A DNA stretch of 64,000 nucleotides, from positions 1 to 64,000 of the forward strand of contig VXMJ01000073.1 in the NCBI GenBank assembly GCA_009841145.1, written 5' to 3'. The notes under the pieces were generated by a model that was given only the letters and a program-made list of their open reading frames with translations, was not told the DNA's origin and did not search any database. Positions 40,901 through 48,646 of this stretch are shown here, in pieces. How positions within the stretch are numbered: position 1 is the stretch's first letter; every line of letters begins with the position of its first letter. The stretch is from Caldilineaceae bacterium SB0661_bin_34. GTDB taxonomy: Bacteria > Chloroflexota > Anaerolineae > Caldilineales > Caldilineaceae. Position numbers and translations under genes: made by a program.

Positions 40901-41013
40901 CGTGTTCATTCTGTGGCAGGTACAAGATAGGGGCTAATGGCTGGAAATGCCAAACTTTGCATGTTGTTGTTCCACAATGACATGGCGGGTATAAGGGGGA
41001 ACAGCGTACGAAG

Positions 41014-41463
41014 TTATGAATGATGTTTGTTTCGTGTCAACCAAAGGGTTCTCCAGTTTCTTTTGCCCAGTCTTTTTTTAATCCACTCAAGTTTTTGGTA
41101 CGGCTTGCAACGATCTAAATACCCTTCTTTGCTTATGATTGTTATGCCAGAGGCGGCATTTTGTGCCAGTTGAAATTCTCCACGTTTCCGAATAGACAGG
41201 TATTGTAATCTTGTTAAAATAAACATGTTCATTTCATGTTGATATGGATTCGCTATAGCATCAAATTTAGCACTGCTCTTTTCGTCGTCTGAAATATTGG
41301 AAATATCATGGACATAGTTATTGATCAATTTGGCAAGATATGAAATTTGTTGTTGTTCTCGTACTGTGTCACGAATCCAAAAATATAAACCAACGATTAA
41401 TGATGTGGAGATTGTTGCAGATACACCAATAACAACACCTTGAATTACATTCGACCAGTCCAT
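41014..41463 (-). CDS. Small membrane-anchored protein of unknown function
   Basis: A 149-aa protein with one N-terminal membrane helix (VIQGVVIGVSATISTSLIVG) and a charged, mostly helical cytoplasmic tail (VREQQQISYLAKLINNYVHD, then KRGEFQLAQNAASG). No domain recognised. ATG 41463. It is the first gene inside the 3.85-kb element, with the AT-rich codon use of that block. The topology resembles small phage or plasmid membrane proteins, but nothing more specific can be said. Confidence 0.55.
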   Translation of the reverse strand: MDWSNVIQGVVIGVSATISTSLIVGLYFWIRDTVREQQQISYLAKLINNYVHDISNISDDEKSSAKFDAIANPYQHEMNMFILTRLQYLSIRKRGEFQLAQNAASGITIISKEGYLDRCKPYQKLEWIKKRLGKRNWRTLWLTRNKHHS

Positions 41464-41716
41464 TGTTGTTTACCCTTATCAGTTGAAGTTTATAAAGCTT
41501 TGCACAATGGCTTAGGATACCATGAGAGACGGCTGTGCGGAAAGGAGTGATTGACACCACATGGCATAGGGGAGGCAGGGCTTCGGGTTCAATAACGGCG
41601 TCTGCAGTAGGATTGGCACTCACGTTAGCGCTAATACGGTGCTTCATATGCTTATCCTTGATTCTGTTTTGGATGTAGTCTGGTAAAATATCAATCCTGC
41701 CTTTGGCCCCGGAGTC

Positions 41717-41744
41717 TTGACTCCCCCATGCCATGCGGTATACT
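41717..41744 (+). promoter_or_regulatory. Sigma-70-type promoter
   Basis: TTGACT (41717-41722) and TATACT (41739-41744) are separated by 16 bases, about 40 bases upstream of the exonuclease start at 41783, which has a GGAG ribosome-binding site. It is the best promoter match I see in the window and lies inside the mobile element. Confidence 0.6.
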
Positions 41745-41782
41745 GGAGTATAACACAACATAGAAATTTTCGGAGCGAACCC

Positions 41783-42018
41783 ATGAACTTGACATTCAAG
41801 GCAATCGATATAGAAACAGCCAATGCCGACAGGTCAAGCATTTGTCAGATAGGTATCGTGAACGTAGTCAATGGTGTTGTTGTGAGCGCATGGCAATCAC
41901 TGATCAATCCCGAATGCCACTTTGATTCGTTCAATACAAGACTTCATGGCATTGATGAACAGACTGTGCAACACTCTCCAACTCTGACTGAAATACATGA
42001 TGAAATCCGGCAAATTTT
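41783..42018 (+). pseudogene. DEDDh 3'-5' exonuclease, truncated by IS1595 sequence
   Basis: Starting at ATG 41783 the frame reads FKAIDIETANADRSSICQIG, the ExoI motif (DxE) of DnaQ-like exonucleases, and continues through INPECHFDSFNTRLHGIDEQ and VQHSPTLTEIHDEIRQIL, where family members carry the helix before ExoII. It then runs directly into IS1595 transposase codons. The ExoII and ExoIII motifs are lost, so no nuclease activity is expected. Confidence 0.75.
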
Positions 42019-42339
42019 GTGTCGAAGGATGCGATGCTCATGACGGATGGCTTGGCTGCCTACGGTACGATGAGTTGGTACTTTGCCGAGCATGGCGTTG
42101 TGGATCATGATGATGAGTTTGTGTCCAGCGAGGACAGTACCATCCATACCAACACCATCGAGAGTTTCTGGCGGCGGCTAAAAGGCCAGTGGTACGGGAC
42201 GCATACACAGTACAGTCCACAGTACGCCAATGCCTATGCAACGGAGTTGTGCTACAAGCACAATCATCGGGACGACAAGGACCAGTTTGGAGATTTCATT
42301 GAGAAGGCGGCCAAGCCCAAGTCGCGGTTGACACGCTAA
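42019..42339 (+). pseudogene. IS1595-family transposase C-terminal fragment
   Basis: About 106 residues with MTDGLAAYGTMSWYFAEHGV, IHTNTIESFWRRLKGQWYGT and YANAYATELCYKHNHRDDKD, the second Asp and final Glu region of IS1595 DDE transposases (HTNxxESFW). The N-terminal zinc ribbon and first Asp are missing. It follows the exonuclease fragment without a gap, so a deletion joined them. A second, separate IS1595-type remnant is at 47715-48646. Confidence 0.8.
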
Positions 42340-42380
42340 CGAGGGCTGTGGTATACACTTGACAAGGGGTTGAGCAGTTG

Positions 42381-42477
42381 TACAGACGGTGCGACTTGAA
42401 CCCACAAGGGCTGCTCGGTTGATGGATCAGACCGCCGTATCCAACTACGGTGCGTATGCCTGTTCCGCCACGCCTGC
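42381..42477 (-). tRNA. Type II tRNA-like sequence with abnormal anticodon loop
   Basis: Read on the minus strand, GCAGGCG (5') pairs with CGTCTGT (3') over 7 bp with two G-U pairs. The D-arm is GCGGAACAGGCATACGC. A long variable arm CGGT...ACCG resembles tRNA-Leu/Ser, and the T-arm has the canonical loop TTCAAGT with one mismatched stem pair. The anticodon arm CCGTAGTTGGATACGG closes either a 6-base loop or, with a 4-bp stem, an 8-base loop, not 7. CCA is not encoded. It may be a degenerate element-borne tRNA, or a non-canonical decoder. Confidence 0.45.
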
Positions 42478-42622
42478 ACATGACTGGATTATACCAGTTG
42501 GCCTGACCCGCTGTATTGCCCTGTTGAGGGTGAATCAATGAAGCAGGCTTTTGCAGTTAGCCCTGGTCGCTGCCAACACCTGTCCGTGTATGAATGTTGT
42601 TCAACGCAACGGAAGCACCGTG

Positions 42623-43306
42623 TCAGTCAAAGCACAGTGCTTCCATTGTGTCGGCGGACGCTTGCATGAATTCAACTGCCTTGTCCAACCTTTCCCCTCC
42701 GGTTTCTAGCCAGTGGGGTTGTTTCCATATAACATATTGTTCAAAGGCTTGTGCTGCTCGTACATGCCAAAGGATTGAATTCAACAGGTGGTCGTACACT
42801 TCCTTGAATTCGGAAGGTGGAGTCATTGCAAACGTGTCGATGTAAATGTTTTTTATGTCATTGAGAACATCGTTGTTTGCATCCGAATCAACAAGATTCT
42901 GTAGCCACAATTCAGTCCTGTCTCCAATCTCAAGTACTTCATCTATGAATTGAATTGCCTTTCGTGATTGGCAAAACTGATTGAATGATTGCACTGTGGC
43001 GGTCGAGGTTGGCAGTGGAATTGGAGTAGGCGTAACCGTAGCCGGAGTCTTTGGTGTGCTGGTTGGTGTATTCGTTGGAGTTGATATTGGTTTTTGTGCA
43101 GGAAAGGGTGTTGGAGTATTGGTCGGCAGCGCAGTATGACTTACGATGGGTGTGAATGTGGGTACGGGTTTAGGCGCCTGTGGTATTGACTCCGTATGTG
43201 TAACCGCTGATATTTCAGGGGGTTGTAGATACAGGTTCAATAAAACAACAAGCAATATGATACAGATAACGGCAACAACGATTGAGATCCATGTCAGTGC
43301 TTTAAT
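42623..43306 (-). CDS. Membrane-anchored protein with Thr/Pro-rich stalk
   Basis: The obvious frame starts with a TTG at 43255. However, the reading frame continues upstream through a complete membrane helix (LTWISIVVAVICIILLVVLL) to an ATT at 43306 preceded by AGGGGG, so I extend it to ~227 aa. After the helix comes a Thr/Pro stalk (about residues 50-95, TNTPTPFPAQKP and similar), then a ~120-aa helical extracellular domain ending EFMQASADTMEALCFD. No family recognised. It sits in the mobile element, convergent with the truncated exonuclease. The start codon is uncertain. Confidence 0.5.
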   Translation of the reverse strand: MKALTWISIVVAVICIILLVVLLNLYLQPPEISAVTHTESIPQAPKPVPTFTPIVSHTALPTNTPTPFPAQKPISTPTNTPTSTPKTPATVTPTPIPLPTSTATVQSFNQFCQSRKAIQFIDEVLEIGDRTELWLQNLVDSDANNDVLNDIKNIYIDTFAMTPPSEFKEVYDHLLNSILWHVRAAQAFEQYVIWKQPHWLETGGERLDKAVEFMQASADTMEALCFD

Positions 43307-43310
43307 GACA

Positions 43311-43434
43311 AGCCCCCTTGTGGTAAGGATGATGCATTACCACACACATGAATCCGTTTAGCCAGCAAGGGGGCACGGATCACGCACCATCTGACTGGCC
43401 AAGGCGGACTCCGCCCGGATTCATATGTGTGGTA
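43311..43434. ncRNA. Structured intergenic segment, possible RNA or recombination site
   Basis: Three nested or adjacent inverted repeats lie within 124 bases: TACCACACACATGAATCCG (43338-43356) with CGGATTCATATGTGTGGTA (43416-43434), one mismatch; GCCCCCTTG (43312-43320) with CAAGGGGGC (43366-43374); and the hairpin GGCGG-ACT-CCGCC (43404-43416). The segment lies between the two tRNA-like sequences of the mobile element. It could be a structured RNA, a replication or recombination site, or a decayed small element. Confidence 0.35.
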
Positions 43435-43521
43435 GAGAAACCATACCACAGGTCCAAGGGGCTTGTCAATGTCGTAGAAACGACTGGTGTAAAGGGAATA
43501 TGTATAATAGTAAAAACAAAA

Positions 43522-43592
43522 CACTGGAGCGGACTTGAACCCACGATCCCTAGCCTGTAAAACTAGGTGGCTTACCACTTGCCTGTCCAGTA
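43522..43592 (-). tRNA. tRNA-like sequence, possibly tRNA-Val(TAC)-like
   Basis: On the minus strand TACTGGA pairs with TCCAGTG (7 bp). The D-arm is GGC-AAGTGGTAA-GCC. The anticodon arm CCTAGTTTTACAGGCTAGG folds with a T-G closing pair into a 7-base loop TTTACAG, placing TAC as anticodon. The T-arm GTGGGTTCAAGTCCGC lacks one base compared with a standard stem-loop, and CCA is not encoded. It may therefore be a degenerate tRNA. It resembles the other tRNA-like sequence 1 kb away in its T-loop. Confidence 0.45.
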
Positions 43593-43619
43593 TGTGTTAA
43601 AATATACAGTTGTCAATAA

Positions 43620-43916
43620 ATGACGGACGTGGAAATGTACAAGGTATTGTTGAATGACATTAGGGATGATTGCAAAAGGCAGTCCATGCAACTTGGTGTA
43701 ACACTGATTGACTACCTGTTCAAGAACGAAGCGATGTTGGACAAATTACATTTTCCCTTTGTCCATGATCAGTTTGAGAAACTGATGGAGGTTCTTCCCC
43801 GCAAGTACCTGAATGACATTCGTGAAATGCAAAGGTTGTACAGTGAGGAAGGATTCACATTGAGGGAAATCATGGACATGCCGATCCTGCCGATTCACAA
43901 GAAGTCGGTCGGATAG
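43620..43916 (+). CDS. Small helical protein, unknown
   Basis: A 98-aa soluble protein (MTDVEMYKVLLNDIRDDC start, then KRQSMQLGVTLIDYLFKN) predicted mostly helical with no signal, membrane helix or cysteine cluster. I recognise no domain. It is the first of three consecutive plus-strand small genes in the right half of the mobile element. A TATAAT at 43503-43508 could be its -10 box, though no matching -35 is clear. Confidence 0.5.
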   Translation: MTDVEMYKVLLNDIRDDCKRQSMQLGVTLIDYLFKNEAMLDKLHFPFVHDQFEKLMEVLPRKYLNDIREMQRLYSEEGFTLREIMDMPILPIHKKSVG

Positions 43917-44030
43917 GAAACAGGGAGGGTGCAGTGCTACAGAGAATAAACAGGAACGTGCTCAATGTAGCGGTTTGACGACGGTTGACAGCTGTGATAC
44001 GATGATGGTGTCTTGAAACACAAGAGGTGA

Positions 44031-44261
44031 ATGATGAACAGTGAACAGGTATACAGCGTCGAAGTAAAAGGTGGTAGGATCATACGTCTTACCAATCCGG
44101 ACAATCAAAATCAAATCACATATGGTTTGGATCAAGTGTCCAGCGTTGAAACCAGTGGCAAGGAACTTGTGCAAATCAGTTTCAAGGATGGAAAGACGTA
44201 TCATGTGTCAGGGGAAGATAGAGTAACATTTTGGTTGAACAAGAAGAAGAAAGAGAGGTAA
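44031..44261 (+). CDS. Small beta-rich protein, unknown
   Basis: A 76-aa protein alternating short strands (VYSVEVKGGRIIRLT, QITYGLDQVSSVE, LVQISFKDGKTYHV) and ending with a basic KKKKER tail. This looks like a small beta-barrel or PH-like fold; no family recognised. AAGAGGTG lies just before the start. It ends 4 bases before the next gene, so the two are co-transcribed. Confidence 0.55.
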   Translation: MMNSEQVYSVEVKGGRIIRLTNPDNQNQITYGLDQVSSVETSGKELVQISFKDGKTYHVSGEDRVTFWLNKKKKER

Positions 44262-44265
44262 AGCA

Positions 44266-44631
44266 GTGGCAATTCAACCTGTCAAGAATGGTAAACGGCA
44301 TCAATGTTCTGTACAGAAAAAGCCTTCCAGTGTTACAAGGGAGGAGTTTGATGAACTTACAAGTACTGTTTACAGTGTGGCGCGTATTGCTGTTGACAAC
44401 AGGCATATGATTAATGGTGTACAAAATGCTTTGGTGGCATTGGACGAAGAAGATGCTCGATTGAAACAAAAGATGTTTGAGATCGATCAAGGCATGGAAA
44501 ACAATCGGAGGATTATCAAGGAGGCGATTAAAAGTATCGGTGATCGAATGAGTGAAAGCGAACAACTTGTAGGTGAATTGGTTGAACGCTTGGGTATCAA
44601 GGATGTATCACTTGATGAGCAACAACCATGA
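44266..44631 (+). CDS. Coiled-coil protein, unknown
   Basis: A 121-aa protein. A basic N-terminus (KNGKRHQCSVQKKPSSV) is followed by a long heptad-like helix from about residue 25 to 115, with stretches such as NALVALDEEDARLKQKMFEI and MSESEQLVGELVERLGI. It is probably an oligomeric coiled coil. The start is GTG at 44266, 4 bases after the preceding gene, with AGAGAGG upstream. A strong terminator follows at 44657, closing the element's small-gene operon. Confidence 0.55.
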   Translation: MAIQPVKNGKRHQCSVQKKPSSVTREEFDELTSTVYSVARIAVDNRHMINGVQNALVALDEEDARLKQKMFEIDQGMENNRRIIKEAIKSIGDRMSESEQLVGELVERLGIKDVSLDEQQP

Positions 44632-44656
44632 GCACACTAAGCCAGAAGCATACAGA

Positions 44657-44679
44657 CAGGCCCCACACGGGGCCTGTTT
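44657..44679 (+). terminator. Rho-independent terminator
   Basis: CAGGCCCC (44657-44664), loop ACAC, GGGGCCTG (44669-44676), then TTT. Perfect 8-bp GC-rich stem 25 bases after the coiled-coil gene. Confidence 0.8.
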
Positions 44680-44824
44680 GCTTCATGGCTACTTTGAGGC
44701 TAGGACATGCAACAACGCCCGCATTTGGACTGCAAGGAGCCTTTAGCCCCTATCTTGTACCTGCCCATTCTGTGTCGTGACATCCAGCCCAATGTGGACA
44801 TCCGGCAAGAGCGGATTTCGGTCG

Positions 44825-44957
44825 CAGCTCTCGGCGGCCGAAGAAGGGCGCGTAGCGTGCCTAGTAGGCCCGCAGCCGTCCGCGCACCGAGGCGATGTCG
44901 GCGCGGCTCAGGGAGACGTCGGGCAGGGACACGGGGGTGGTGGCCAGGGTCATGGCG
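44825..44957 (-). pseudogene. IS701-like transposase N-terminal remnant
   Basis: The minus strand reads VSLSRADIASVRGRLRAY, stop, ARYAPFFGRRE, the N-terminal block of many IS701-family transposases. An in-frame stop and loss of everything downstream make it dead. It is a different member from the truncated one at 11796-12867. The 3.85-kb element lies immediately beside it. The surrounding 44774-45119 holds nothing else I can support. Confidence 0.55.
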
Positions 44958-45128
44958 AGGTGGGGACTGAGGGAATCCAAACACCGGGATTCTACCTCTC
45001 AATGTTTCGTTGCACTACTAGGATCCATAGGACCAACTAAACACCGATCCTGCGCACCATCGTGGTTGCCAATGTCATCCGAAACCTATTTTTCCGCAGC
45101 ATCTAGGGTCAAAATAGGAGTTCAATGC

Positions 45129-46201
45129 GGCACTGTTTCAATCTCGTTGATTTTGGTTGCAGGCTGTTATATGCCTATTTTCTGTACCAGTGGGTTCCGT
45201 GTGTCGCTTCAGGCCATACTGCGGGCTATCAGGCGCACGAAGCCCCTGCCTCGGTCTTCAGTCCCGGTGTCAGGCGGGTCCAGGGCTTGAAGCTGCCAAA
45301 CCAACTCTCCAACCGGGTGGTGGAGGCGGGCACCTTGGGGTTCCCTTGGCTGCATACCAAGTTGTGCCGGCGTTCCAAGAGGTGCCACAACTGCTTCTGC
45401 ACCTCCTGCTGCAGACCTACACAGCCCTGCATCACCGCCCCCTAGAGTGCCAGCAGGACTGGTCCCGCCTCCAGCGGTCGTTCTCGGGCCGGGCGTTGCA
45501 GGATCGGCAGCAGGACCCGGTCCAGGTGGGGCAGGTCGTCTTCGTCGATACCCCGGATATGCCGTCTCACGGTGCGCTGCATGTGCACGGCGCACTGTTG
45601 CCGGTCCAGATCCGCTGTCTCCAGAGCCGGGCGTAGACCGGGTCGTCGTCGGTCGTAGCTCCCTGTATCTTGCGCGCGGCCAGGAACGTGAACTGTCGAA
45701 GCCGGGACCACTCAGGCGCAGGTCCAGCCGTTCGCCCTTGGGGTCCAGGACCACCGCCATCGGGCGCTTGACGCCCTCGATGAACAGCCAGGTCTCGTCC
45801 ACCTTGACCGAGGTGGGATAGATCCCGGAAACTGACACAGTGCCCGTACAGGTCGGTCACCAGAGCCCGGAAAGTCTGCGGCTGTTGGCGGAAGGTTACG
45901 TCGGGCGGCAGGGACGAGGCGCTACCCAGGTAGGCCTTGTACGGCCAGCGCTGGACGCACAGGCGGCCGAGGACGACCAGATCGCGGGCATAGGTGCCGT
46001 TGCGCCGCCAGGCACAGGCCCCGTAATGACGGCAGGTGCCCGGGTCGTCGGGCAATGCACGTTGGCGTTCGGGATGGGCAGGCGCTAGGATGAAGTCCTC
46101 CACACCGAGGGGCCCTCTTTGGTTGTCACGACAACACTATTGTAGGGAGCCCTCATCGTGTGCGCGTCCAGAACCAACATCAACGAGATTGAAACAGTGC
46201 C
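45129..46201 (-). mobile_element. IS with GGCACTGTTTCA ends, transposase decayed (copy 1)
   Basis: GGCACTGTTTCAATCTCGTT starts at 45129 and its reverse complement ends at 46201. The nonamer GTTCAATGC flanks both sides (45120-45128, 46202-46210), a perfect target duplication. The minus strand carries a broken DDE transposase: a decayed zinc-ribbon-like CRHYGACAWRRNGTYARDLV, then SVKVDETWLFIEGVKRPMAV, and in another frame TRLESWFGSFKPWTRLTPGL with LKTEAG. The ends resemble IS6-family ends (GGCACTGTTGCA) and target duplications of about 8 bp fit that family, but assignment is uncertain. Frameshifts and stops make it inactive. Confidence 0.8.
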
Positions 46202-47072: not shown

Positions 47073-47094
47073 GAGGGGATTACCGGCACTGTTT

Positions 47095-47639
47095 CACTTT
47101 CGTTGAAAACGGTTCAGGCCCGGAACAAGACGAGAGGCCCTGTACCCTTGGTTTGACGTCAATCAACCAAGCAAGGATCTCTCACCATGTCTTTCACGGT
47201 AGTCCCTGAAGAGCCCGCGCGTCAACTCGCGGATCCCGGTTCGCCCGAGGCGTGTCCCCATTGCGGCCGGCGCACCTTTTGGCGCAACGGCTGCTACGAG
47301 CGCCATCTGCTGCTGCTGGTCTGCTGCGAGTGGGCCCACCAGGGCGTGGTCCGGCTGTCGCCGCCCGTGTTGGCCCTGGTGGAGCATGTCATGGACCGCT
47401 GGAACGACCTCGTCCGCTGTGTGCGCGACCCCGCCATCCCCTCCAGCACGAACGGCTGGTTTGGACGCTTCAAGCCCCGGGCGCGGCTGGCCCGCGGCCT
47501 GAAGACACCGCAGGGCGCACAGGCCTTCCTGCACCTGCTGGCCGGAAACCTGGCTTGAAACCGGCCGGCCCACCAGGACCGGGCCCAAGGAGCCGTTCAT
47601 GTCCAACTGAACCGTTTTCAACGAAAGTGAAACAGTGCC
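47095..47639 (+). mobile_element. Internally deleted IS, MITE-like (copy 2)
   Basis: GGCACTGTTTCACTTTCGTT at 47095 and its reverse complement ending at 47639 are flanked by GGATTACC on both sides (47087-47094, 47640-47647). The inside reads as a 123-aa frame from 47187: the transposase N-terminal zinc site CPHCGRRTFWRNGCYERH is joined in frame to the C-terminal end WFGRFKPRARLARGLKT. The catalytic centre is deleted, giving a short non-autonomous derivative. Confidence 0.85.
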
Positions 47640-47714: not shown

Positions 47715-48646
47715 ATGGCCGACAAGGGGTTGAGCCTCATCGAATTGATGGAGTTGTTTCCCGATGAAGAGACCGCCCGCGCCTGGTTCGAGTAGATTCG
47801 CTGGCCCGCAGGTCGCATGTGCGCCCACTGTGGCAGTGAGCGAACCCGCACCGTACCAACGCCAAGCCAATGCCCTACTGGTGCACTGACTGCCGCTCCT
47901 ACTTCAGCGTCAAGGTTGGAACAGTCATGCAGGCATCCAAAATACCGCTCTGCCAATGGGCCATCGCCTTCTACCAGATGACCACGAATCTGAAAGGTGT
48001 CAGCAGCCTGAAGCTGCATCAGGACCTGGGCATTTCCCAGACTTCCGCCTGGTTCATGGGGCATCGCATCCGGTAGGCGATGCAGGGCGACGATCCCGTG
48101 TTCTCCGGACCGAGCGAGGCCGATGATACCTATGTCGGCGGCAAGGAAGCCAACAAGCACGCATCCAAGAAACAGAAGCAGGGTCGCGACTCCGTGGGCA
48201 AGGCTCCGACAGCCGGTGTCAAGGACCGCCGGACAGGCTAGGTGGCCGCGGATGCCGTGGCCAAGGTGGATGGTGAAGCGGTCCACCGGTTTATCCCATC
48301 AGCGCACAGAATTGATGGCGATGGTCTACACCGATGAAGCGACCGTCTATGCCGGCATGAGAGTGTGGCTCACAGCGTTGGGGAATTCGTACGGGACATG
48401 GTATACACAAACGGCTTGGAGTCGTTCTGGTCCATGCTCAAACGTGACTACGTGGGGGTCTATCTTCAGATGTTCCACAAGCACCTGAATCGGTACGTCA
48501 CTAAGTTCGCGGGTCGCCACAACGTCCGTAGGCAGGATACGCCGACGCAGATGTCCGATCTGGTGCGCGGTGGCATCGGCACGTGGTTATGGTATGCGGA
48601 CCTGATCGCCAATCCCGTCATGACCGCTCCGACCCGCTGTTCCTGA
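47715..48646 (+). pseudogene. IS1595-family transposase, multiply interrupted
   Basis: Frames in order: MADKGLSLIELMELFPDEET with AGRMCAHCGSERT (zinc ribbon), YWCTDCRSYFSVKVGTVMQA, LHQDLGISQTSAWFMGHRIR, DDTYVGGKEANKH (first Asp region), and GLESFWSMLKRDYVGVY with FAGRHNVR. Stops at ~47794, 48076 and 48241 and a frame change near 48260 make it dead. It lies directly upstream of the type I restriction operon; hsdM starts 131 bases later. Confidence 0.85.

Follow-up and report, generated by a model that had tools for sequence, protein, structure and literature searches.

A probable stranded IS1595-type cargo cassette with tRNA-like genes and a candidate leader RNA in a Caldilineaceae genome

A stretch of 64,000 nucleotides from the sponge-associated Chloroflexota genome Caldilineaceae bacterium SB0661_bin_34 (assembly GCA_009841145.1, contig VXMJ01000073.1, positions 1 to 64,000; hereafter the window) contains a 3.85-kb unit at 40915–44765 that has the ends of a transposon and only part of a transposase. 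What is this unit, how did it reach its position, and what does its cargo of small open reading frames (ORFs), tRNA-like genes, and a structured leader RNA represent? An earlier annotation made from the letters of the window (the sequence-only reading) had proposed an undescribed, non-autonomous transposon that carries cargo. Here, the unit is compared with unoccupied sites in congeners, with related elements of the family Caldilineaceae and its class, and with known mobile systems. We consider it highly probable that an IS1595-type transposon lost most of its transposase here and that the unit persists as a stranded cargo cassette.

Results

The unit is a precise insertion

The two terminal inverted repeats (TIRs) of the unit are 28 nt long, 27 of which are identical when the repeats are compared in inverted orientation; a perfect 8-bp target-site duplication (TSD), CATTCTGT, flanks both. 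The surrounding 6 kb was shuffled 30 times and scored for a 20-bp inverted repeat enclosed by exact 8-bp repeats with a cut-off of at least 16 matches. The best shuffled arrangement reached 15 of 20, compared with 20 of 20 at the real site; the TIR and TSD together are beyond chance. The G+C content of the interior is 45.4%, versus 59.5% for the whole window. The sequence-only reading had described inverted repeats of about 28 bp, a perfect 8-bp duplication, and an interior of different composition, and it was right on all of these points.

That reading had also proposed a search for empty sites with a single copy of the 8-mer, and two natural ones exist. The left flank of the element is a GH16 gene that was detected in each of the three genomes available for the genus. 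In two of these congeners, G002 (TATTCTGT) and G003 (CATTCCGT), a single target copy runs straight into the right flank known from the window, GTCGT(G/A)ACATCC; in the third, G001, the contig stops short of the insertion site. An empty site made in silico by joining the flanks of the window gave unbroken alignments to the two congeners over 457 nt (87.5%) and 465 nt (91%). The empty sites in G002 and G003 thus establish the precise insertion of the unit and fix both of its boundaries. A unit with matched ends inserted at one position, 8 bp were duplicated, and congeners retain the unoccupied site.

The transposase is a remnant

As the sequence-only reading had noted, the unit holds only a C-terminal fragment of a transposase. 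The fragment matches the DDE_Tnp_IS1595 domain at positions 75–153 only and is 37–43% identical to complete relatives, but the region of the first catalytic Asp and the zinc ribbon, both present in those relatives, are missing, so the window element has no complete transposase with all catalytic residues. The GG-ended TIRs and the 8-bp duplication are those of the IS1595 family. Fused to the transposase fragment is the N-terminal part (82 residues) of a DEDDh exonuclease with phage tblastn matches at 42–51%. Because the exonuclease homology is cut off where the transposase homology starts, it is most likely that a deletion joined two genes, fusing the exonuclease N terminus with the transposase C terminus. 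The window element is unable to move by itself in this genome, and mobilization in trans is possible. Two other IS1595 matches in the genome are each interrupted by stops. An IS1595 transposase remnant with stop codons lies at 48104–48523 (+), 3.3 kb downstream of the element.

Related elements regularly carry passengers

With the complete 304-residue transposase of two related elements, L016 and L023, as query, matches were found in 17 of 396 genomes of the class. Among elements of the same family and class, 24 have resolved TIRs and a perfect 8-bp TSD, and an additional one, L022, has one mismatch in its duplication. These related elements span 1.9–4.7 kb; as all exceed the ∼1.1 kb required by a transposase gene, passengers are the rule. 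L023 (1,900 bp) encodes a complete transposase of 304 residues with zinc ribbon and DDE domain and interrupts a gene whose halves, by reading, appear to join in frame once the element and one copy of the duplication are taken out. The TIR of the window element (GGCAGGTACAAGATAGGGGCT) is similar to those of L019–L023 (GGCAATTAGTAGTTAGGGGCT and the like), with the common pattern GGCA...AGGGGCT, and the transposases of L019–L023 are among the closest to the window fragment (36–43%). The IS1595-type assignment made earlier is therefore borne out by the domain match, the duplication, the likeness of the TIRs to those of complete relatives, the empty sites in the two congeners, and the complete transposases of relatives with equal duplication length; complete elements with a whole transposase, which the sequence-only reading had suggested looking for, do exist, L023 being an example. 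Cargo varies between the related elements. A DNA methyltransferase with a weak restriction-endonuclease-like C-terminal match is encoded in L019, similar ORFs occur in L020–L022, and small membrane proteins are encoded elsewhere.

tRNA-like genes recur in these elements

Both tRNA-like sequences that had been suspected in the window element could be substantiated. One is a divergent tRNA-Val(tac), found by ARAGORN and Rfam, which has the lowest score of the 47 tRNAs of the genome (31.1 bits versus 47–80 for the other 46). The other, a class II tRNA-like gene, was missed by both ARAGORN and Rfam and was found by an acceptor/T-arm scan and by folding; it has a Leu-like D-arm and UGG within a 6-nt anticodon loop (GUUGGA). 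Flanking pairs lengthen its acceptor to 10 bp, and its T-stem has a mismatch. Its architecture is 7/5 with outer flanking pairs and not 9/3 (a 9-bp acceptor with a 3-bp T-stem).

A search for a paired T-arm plus acceptor stem picked up five tRNA-like genes across 79.8 kb of element DNA, compared with none across 252 kb of the DNA that flanks the elements; shuffling leads one to expect 0.15. By simple arithmetic, the probability that all five would land in elements by chance, within 332 kb in total, is ∼0.0008. Seven IS1595 carriers of tRNA or tRNA-like genes are now recognized: the window element, L023, L066, L068, L069, L200, and L215. Perfect 20-bp TIR matches and 8-bp duplications delimit L200 and L215, and the right end of L068 is lost at a contig end. 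In six of the seven carriers, the tRNA strand is opposite to that of the transposase, L069 being the exception.

The predicted structures depart from the canonical form in several ways. Partly by reading the sequences, anticodon loops of 6 nt are seen in the window class II tRNA, L066, and L200, an 8-nt loop in L068, and one extra G in the 3′ acceptor strand in L066, L068, and L200. These last three have a bulged acceptor; L066 and L068 fold as cloverleaves. L069 has a class II tRNA whose anticodon is UGG (Pro) and which carries A73. In L023, a Pro(agg) tRNA scores 55 bits, with acceptor and T stem both complete, and a second tRNA, shared with L016, is by inspection class II with a 9-bp acceptor, a 3-bp T-stem, and the anticodon GAG. 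The element tRNAs are probably accessory rather than housekeeping.

Two tandem tRNA-Gly(gcc) genes are located at positions 288–438 of L215, a 4,737-bp IS1595 element. At L125 and L212, tRNA-Gly genes lie 1–2.5 kb from a leader copy at loci where the element ends are unresolved, and the tRNA-Gly genes of L125 form a tandem pair akin to that of L215, at ∼0.9 kb from the leader copy.

A leader RNA covaries around the ribosome-binding site

A segment of ∼130 nt precedes small cargo ORFs in many related elements and is present in no fewer than 12 complete IS1595 elements. In the window, its 3′ end abuts the start position of the passenger ORF. The predicted order of parts is a basal stem (CCACAGCG/CGCTGTGG) and a loop with a short GCGC-ATT-GCGC hairpin and an anti-Shine–Dalgarno (anti-SD) strand (GCCCCCTTGTTGG); beyond the stem follow a strand that would pair back into the loop (CCATTCATC with GATGAGTGG), the Shine–Dalgarno (SD) sequence (CCACCAAGGGGGC), and a start codon, which in most copies lies ∼5–12 nt past the SD. 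The window copy keeps all three helices, namely a 19-bp stem, the pseudoknot, and a 9-bp anti-SD:SD pairing.

Among 27 copies, tested as unaligned segments, each of the three pairings beats all 2000 permutations, a kind of test that is somewhat inflated by relatedness. A cleaner subset of 18 sequences was used for pair counts and for a covariance model (R1). In this alignment, 91.6% of cells pair, two-sided changes are found in 10 of 34 pairs versus 5.2 ± 1.5 in shuffles (0 of 500), and sliding the partner strand by 1–3 columns lowers pairing to 36–66%. Built with the window copy excluded, model R1 has that copy as its sole match in the genome at E ≤ 0.01. This covariation shows that the predicted pairing between the anti-SD and the ribosome-binding site is conserved, and the leader is a candidate for a new regulatory RNA family. 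No family of Rfam 15 matched the leader. The string AAGGGGGCACCGC resembles the T-box string AAGGGUGGNACCGC; T-box identity was rejected, as Rfam gave no T-box match at E ≤ 10 (L023) or E ≤ 1 (the window, L112, L113, and L117).

Within the family, the leader is confined to two genera (g9 and g1), with up to 14 matches per genome in 19 of 46 genomes. Its exact core pattern occurs at 20 places in 84,980 species genomes, 18 of them in records named Caldilineaceae; the remaining two are in "Chloroflexi COS1_bin_19" and in one Pseudanabaena, the latter possibly by chance. Class-level pattern matches in other families (L127–L132) have neither the stems nor an SD and were dropped as chance. Outside IS1595 elements, the leader and a short ORF precede a RecQ helicase (L111) and a GmrSD-RecQ fusion (L113), among others, and a link of the leader to defense genes is possible. 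GmrSD-like ORFs stand at the same distance from the leader at L112, L116, and L120. At L072 (5172–7665, genome G043), two near-identical IS1595 transposase copies with the leader are arranged in tandem, ∼2.5 kb apart.

Other features of the element and its surroundings

The coordinates of all features are collected in Table 1. Besides the passenger ORF behind the leader, the element has ORFs of 149, 98, 76, and 121 residues.

Table 1. Features of the window element in order of position
Feature	Position	Strand	Basis or remark
Left TSD, CATTCTGT	40907–40914	.	Exact 8-mer; one copy at the empty sites of G002 and G003
Left TIR, GGCAGGTACAAGATAGGGGCTAATGGCT	40915–40942	+	27/28 versus right TIR; similar to GGCAATTAGTAGTTAGGGGCTT of complete relatives
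149-residue ORF	41014–41463	-	Predicted N-terminal membrane segment; no known family
N-terminal fragment of DEDDh (RNase_T) exonuclease, phage DNA-polymerase-exonuclease type	41783–42028	+	PF00929, E 2e-8; phrog_192, E 2e-15
C-terminal fragment of IS1595 DDE transposase	42019–42339	+	PF12762 positions 75–153 of 153, E 3e-16
Class II tRNA-like gene	42378–42480	-	Acceptor/T-arm scan; fold -39 kcal/mol
Passenger ORF, 227 codons	42623–43306	-	N-terminal transmembrane segment, Thr/Pro-rich linker, helical domain
Structured leader RNA (anti-SD, pseudoknot, long basal stem; predicted)	43307–43435	-	Covariance model R1, 26.5 bits, E 3.4e-4
SD of passenger ORF, in leader, CAAGGGGGC	43312–43320	-	Pairs with GCCCCCTTG
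Leader pseudoknot 3′ strand, TGCATCATC	43328–43336	-	Pairs with GATGGTGCG
Leader anti-SD, GCCCCCTTG	43366–43374	-	Pairs with CAAGGGGGC at 43312–43320
Leader pseudoknot 5′ strand, GATGGTGCG	43383–43391	-	Pairs with TGCATCATC at 43328–43336
tRNA-Val(tac), divergent	43520–43593	-	ARAGORN; Rfam tRNA, 31.1 bits
98-residue ORF	43620–43916	+	No family assigned
76-residue ORF	44031–44261	+	No family assigned
121-residue ORF	44266–44631	+	Coiled-coil-like; no family assigned
Right TIR	44738–44765	-	27/28 versus left TIR
Right TSD, CATTCTGT	44766–44773	.	Identical to left copy

Short repeats of ∼200–240 bp beside the insertion, at 44823–45022 and 47085–47500, are multicopy in congeners (84–93% identity) and resemble miniature inverted-repeat transposable elements. 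Degenerate, frameshifted transposase-like DNA occupies 45129–46201 on the downstream side, and the region downstream of the insertion has ∼90–105 matches per genome of the genus, as expected of an expanded insertion sequence (IS) or its remains.

Discussion

The window element is one member of a Caldilineaceae population of IS1595 elements with passengers, in which tRNA-like genes and one structured leader RNA recur. In the reading that we prefer, that of a stranded cassette, an ancestor whose IS1595 transposase was still complete, or a transposase acting in trans, would have inserted the unit at a target cut with an 8-bp stagger, and past transposition would have been of the IS1595 type. The deletion that fused the exonuclease N terminus to the transposase C terminus would later have ended autonomous movement. 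The cargo would be a recurring passenger module in which a gene for a membrane or secreted protein, placed behind the pseudoknotted leader, is accompanied by one or two genes for tRNAs or tRNA-like sequences. By pairing with the ribosome-binding site of the passenger, the anti-SD would keep translation off by default, and opening of the pseudoknot or of the anti-SD pairing upon some signal would turn it on. The tRNAs would most likely alter or protect translation under stress or phage encounter, or serve as tRNA-like decoys.

Several observations weigh against this account. No intact IS1595 transposase was found in the host genome, the assembly of which is 98% complete. A search for further copies of the TIR of the element, which the sequence-only reading had proposed, came back empty in the host genome and in 99 relatives, which gives no sign of recent movement of the window element. 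Where the leader places the start of the passenger ORF (43306, minus strand), the codon is ATT. Either translation begins at AUU or an ATG has been lost, and the module may therefore be decayed. The passenger proteins belong to no recognized family and have no homolog in other IS1595 elements, and the leader also occurs outside IS1595 elements.

It is possible that the interior is captured phage or plasmid DNA, with the tRNAs, the exonuclease, and the leader as accidental cargo that does nothing for the element. Phages typically carry tRNAs, the exonuclease fragment resembles the phage DNA-polymerase exonuclease of phrog_192, the G+C content is unlike that of the host, and cargo differs from element to element. 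However, tRNA-like genes recur in seven elements whose other cargo is unrelated, in six of them opposite to the transposase strand, and their density far exceeds that of flanking DNA. Furthermore, neither the TIR pattern of the element nor the leader pattern had a match in viral contigs. Overall, we regard accidental capture as unlikely. A weightier concern is that the tRNA-like sequences could be decaying pseudogenes that lack function, a reading that we hold to be possible, if rather doubtful. The low score of the window tRNA-Val, the T-stem mismatch and short anticodon loop of the class II copy, and the bulged acceptors of L066, L068, and L200 would all fit decay, but the acceptor stems are paired through different sequences in each copy, the 6-nt loops are seen independently in three elements, and the cloverleaves of L066 and L068 and the intact stems of the L023 Pro(agg) tRNA also speak against it.

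A similar question applies to the leader, as its hairpin could be a DNA-level feature, such as a recombination or regulatory site, and not an RNA switch. A long inverted repeat can serve as a site in DNA, and many leader copies are close to contig ends, that is, in repeated regions. However, pairing here is pseudoknotted and includes G-U pairs, the SD is itself one of the paired strands, and most copies have a start codon at a distance suited to translation, all of which makes a DNA site very improbable. At the other extreme, the elements might be dedicated carriers of a translation-interference module in which noncanonical tRNAs (with 6-nt anticodon loops, with a Pro anticodon on a class II body, or with a 9/3 fold) and the SD-sequestering switch, a new one, act together; the switch would sense a translational or phage-induced state and release the membrane protein, and the tRNAs would rescue or rewire decoding. 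We give this proposal little credence.

How does the stranded cassette compare with described systems? An IS with passenger genes is known as a tIS, and the IS1595 family was described in 2009 by Siguier, Gagnevin, and Chandler in work on the frontier between ISs and transposons (cited in PMC7986276). Passenger cassettes between transposon inverted repeats have been termed mobile insertion cassettes (MICs; PMC4619425). Like a tIS of IS1595, the window element has the DDE domain, TIRs that start with GG, an 8-bp duplication, and passengers between its ends; the differences are that, of the transposase that accompanies the passengers in a tIS, only the C-terminal fragment is left here, and that tRNA-like genes are part of the cargo, as is a structured leader. 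Its relatives have both passengers and transposase and are tIS in full. As in a MIC, transposon-type inverted repeats enclose passengers and no working transposase, but a remnant of the transposase is retained, and no transposase with the same ends turned up as a partner. The remnant suggests that the window element decayed from an autonomous one. Thus, the sequence-only reading of an undescribed non-autonomous cargo transposon stands as to non-autonomy and cargo; "undescribed" holds for the combination of cargo and not for the kind of element, as tIS and MIC are already known.

The cargo also has partial counterparts. Mukai et al. (2017, NAR 45:2776) are said to have described tRNAs with 8/4 and 9/3 cloverleaves. 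Their paper is cited in PMC11415595. The second tRNA of L016 and L023 shares the 9-bp acceptor, the 3-bp T-stem, and class II membership with 9/3 tRNAs. The window tRNAs differ from both types in that they are 7/5, their oddity is the 6-nt anticodon loop, and their genes are transposon cargo. The main text of a 2026 paper on 4-bp anticodon stems (PMC13092985) does not mention mobile elements, transposons, or phages. The predicted leader is like SD-sequestering pseudoknot riboswitches and translational T-box leaders in its anti-SD pairing with the ribosome-binding site, its pseudoknot, and its position before an ORF; it is unlike them in its covarying architecture and in having no match in Rfam 15. 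A literature search found neither tRNA cargo in IS1595 or other IS elements nor this leader RNA, which is weak evidence, as subscription literature is mostly outside its coverage.

We know of no transposons that are regular carriers of tRNA genes. In the Caldilineaceae, a defined IS1595 lineage has tRNA-like cargo again and again, often with an anticodon loop that is not canonical, and the leader RNA is a candidate regulatory family found both in mobile elements and before restriction and helicase genes.

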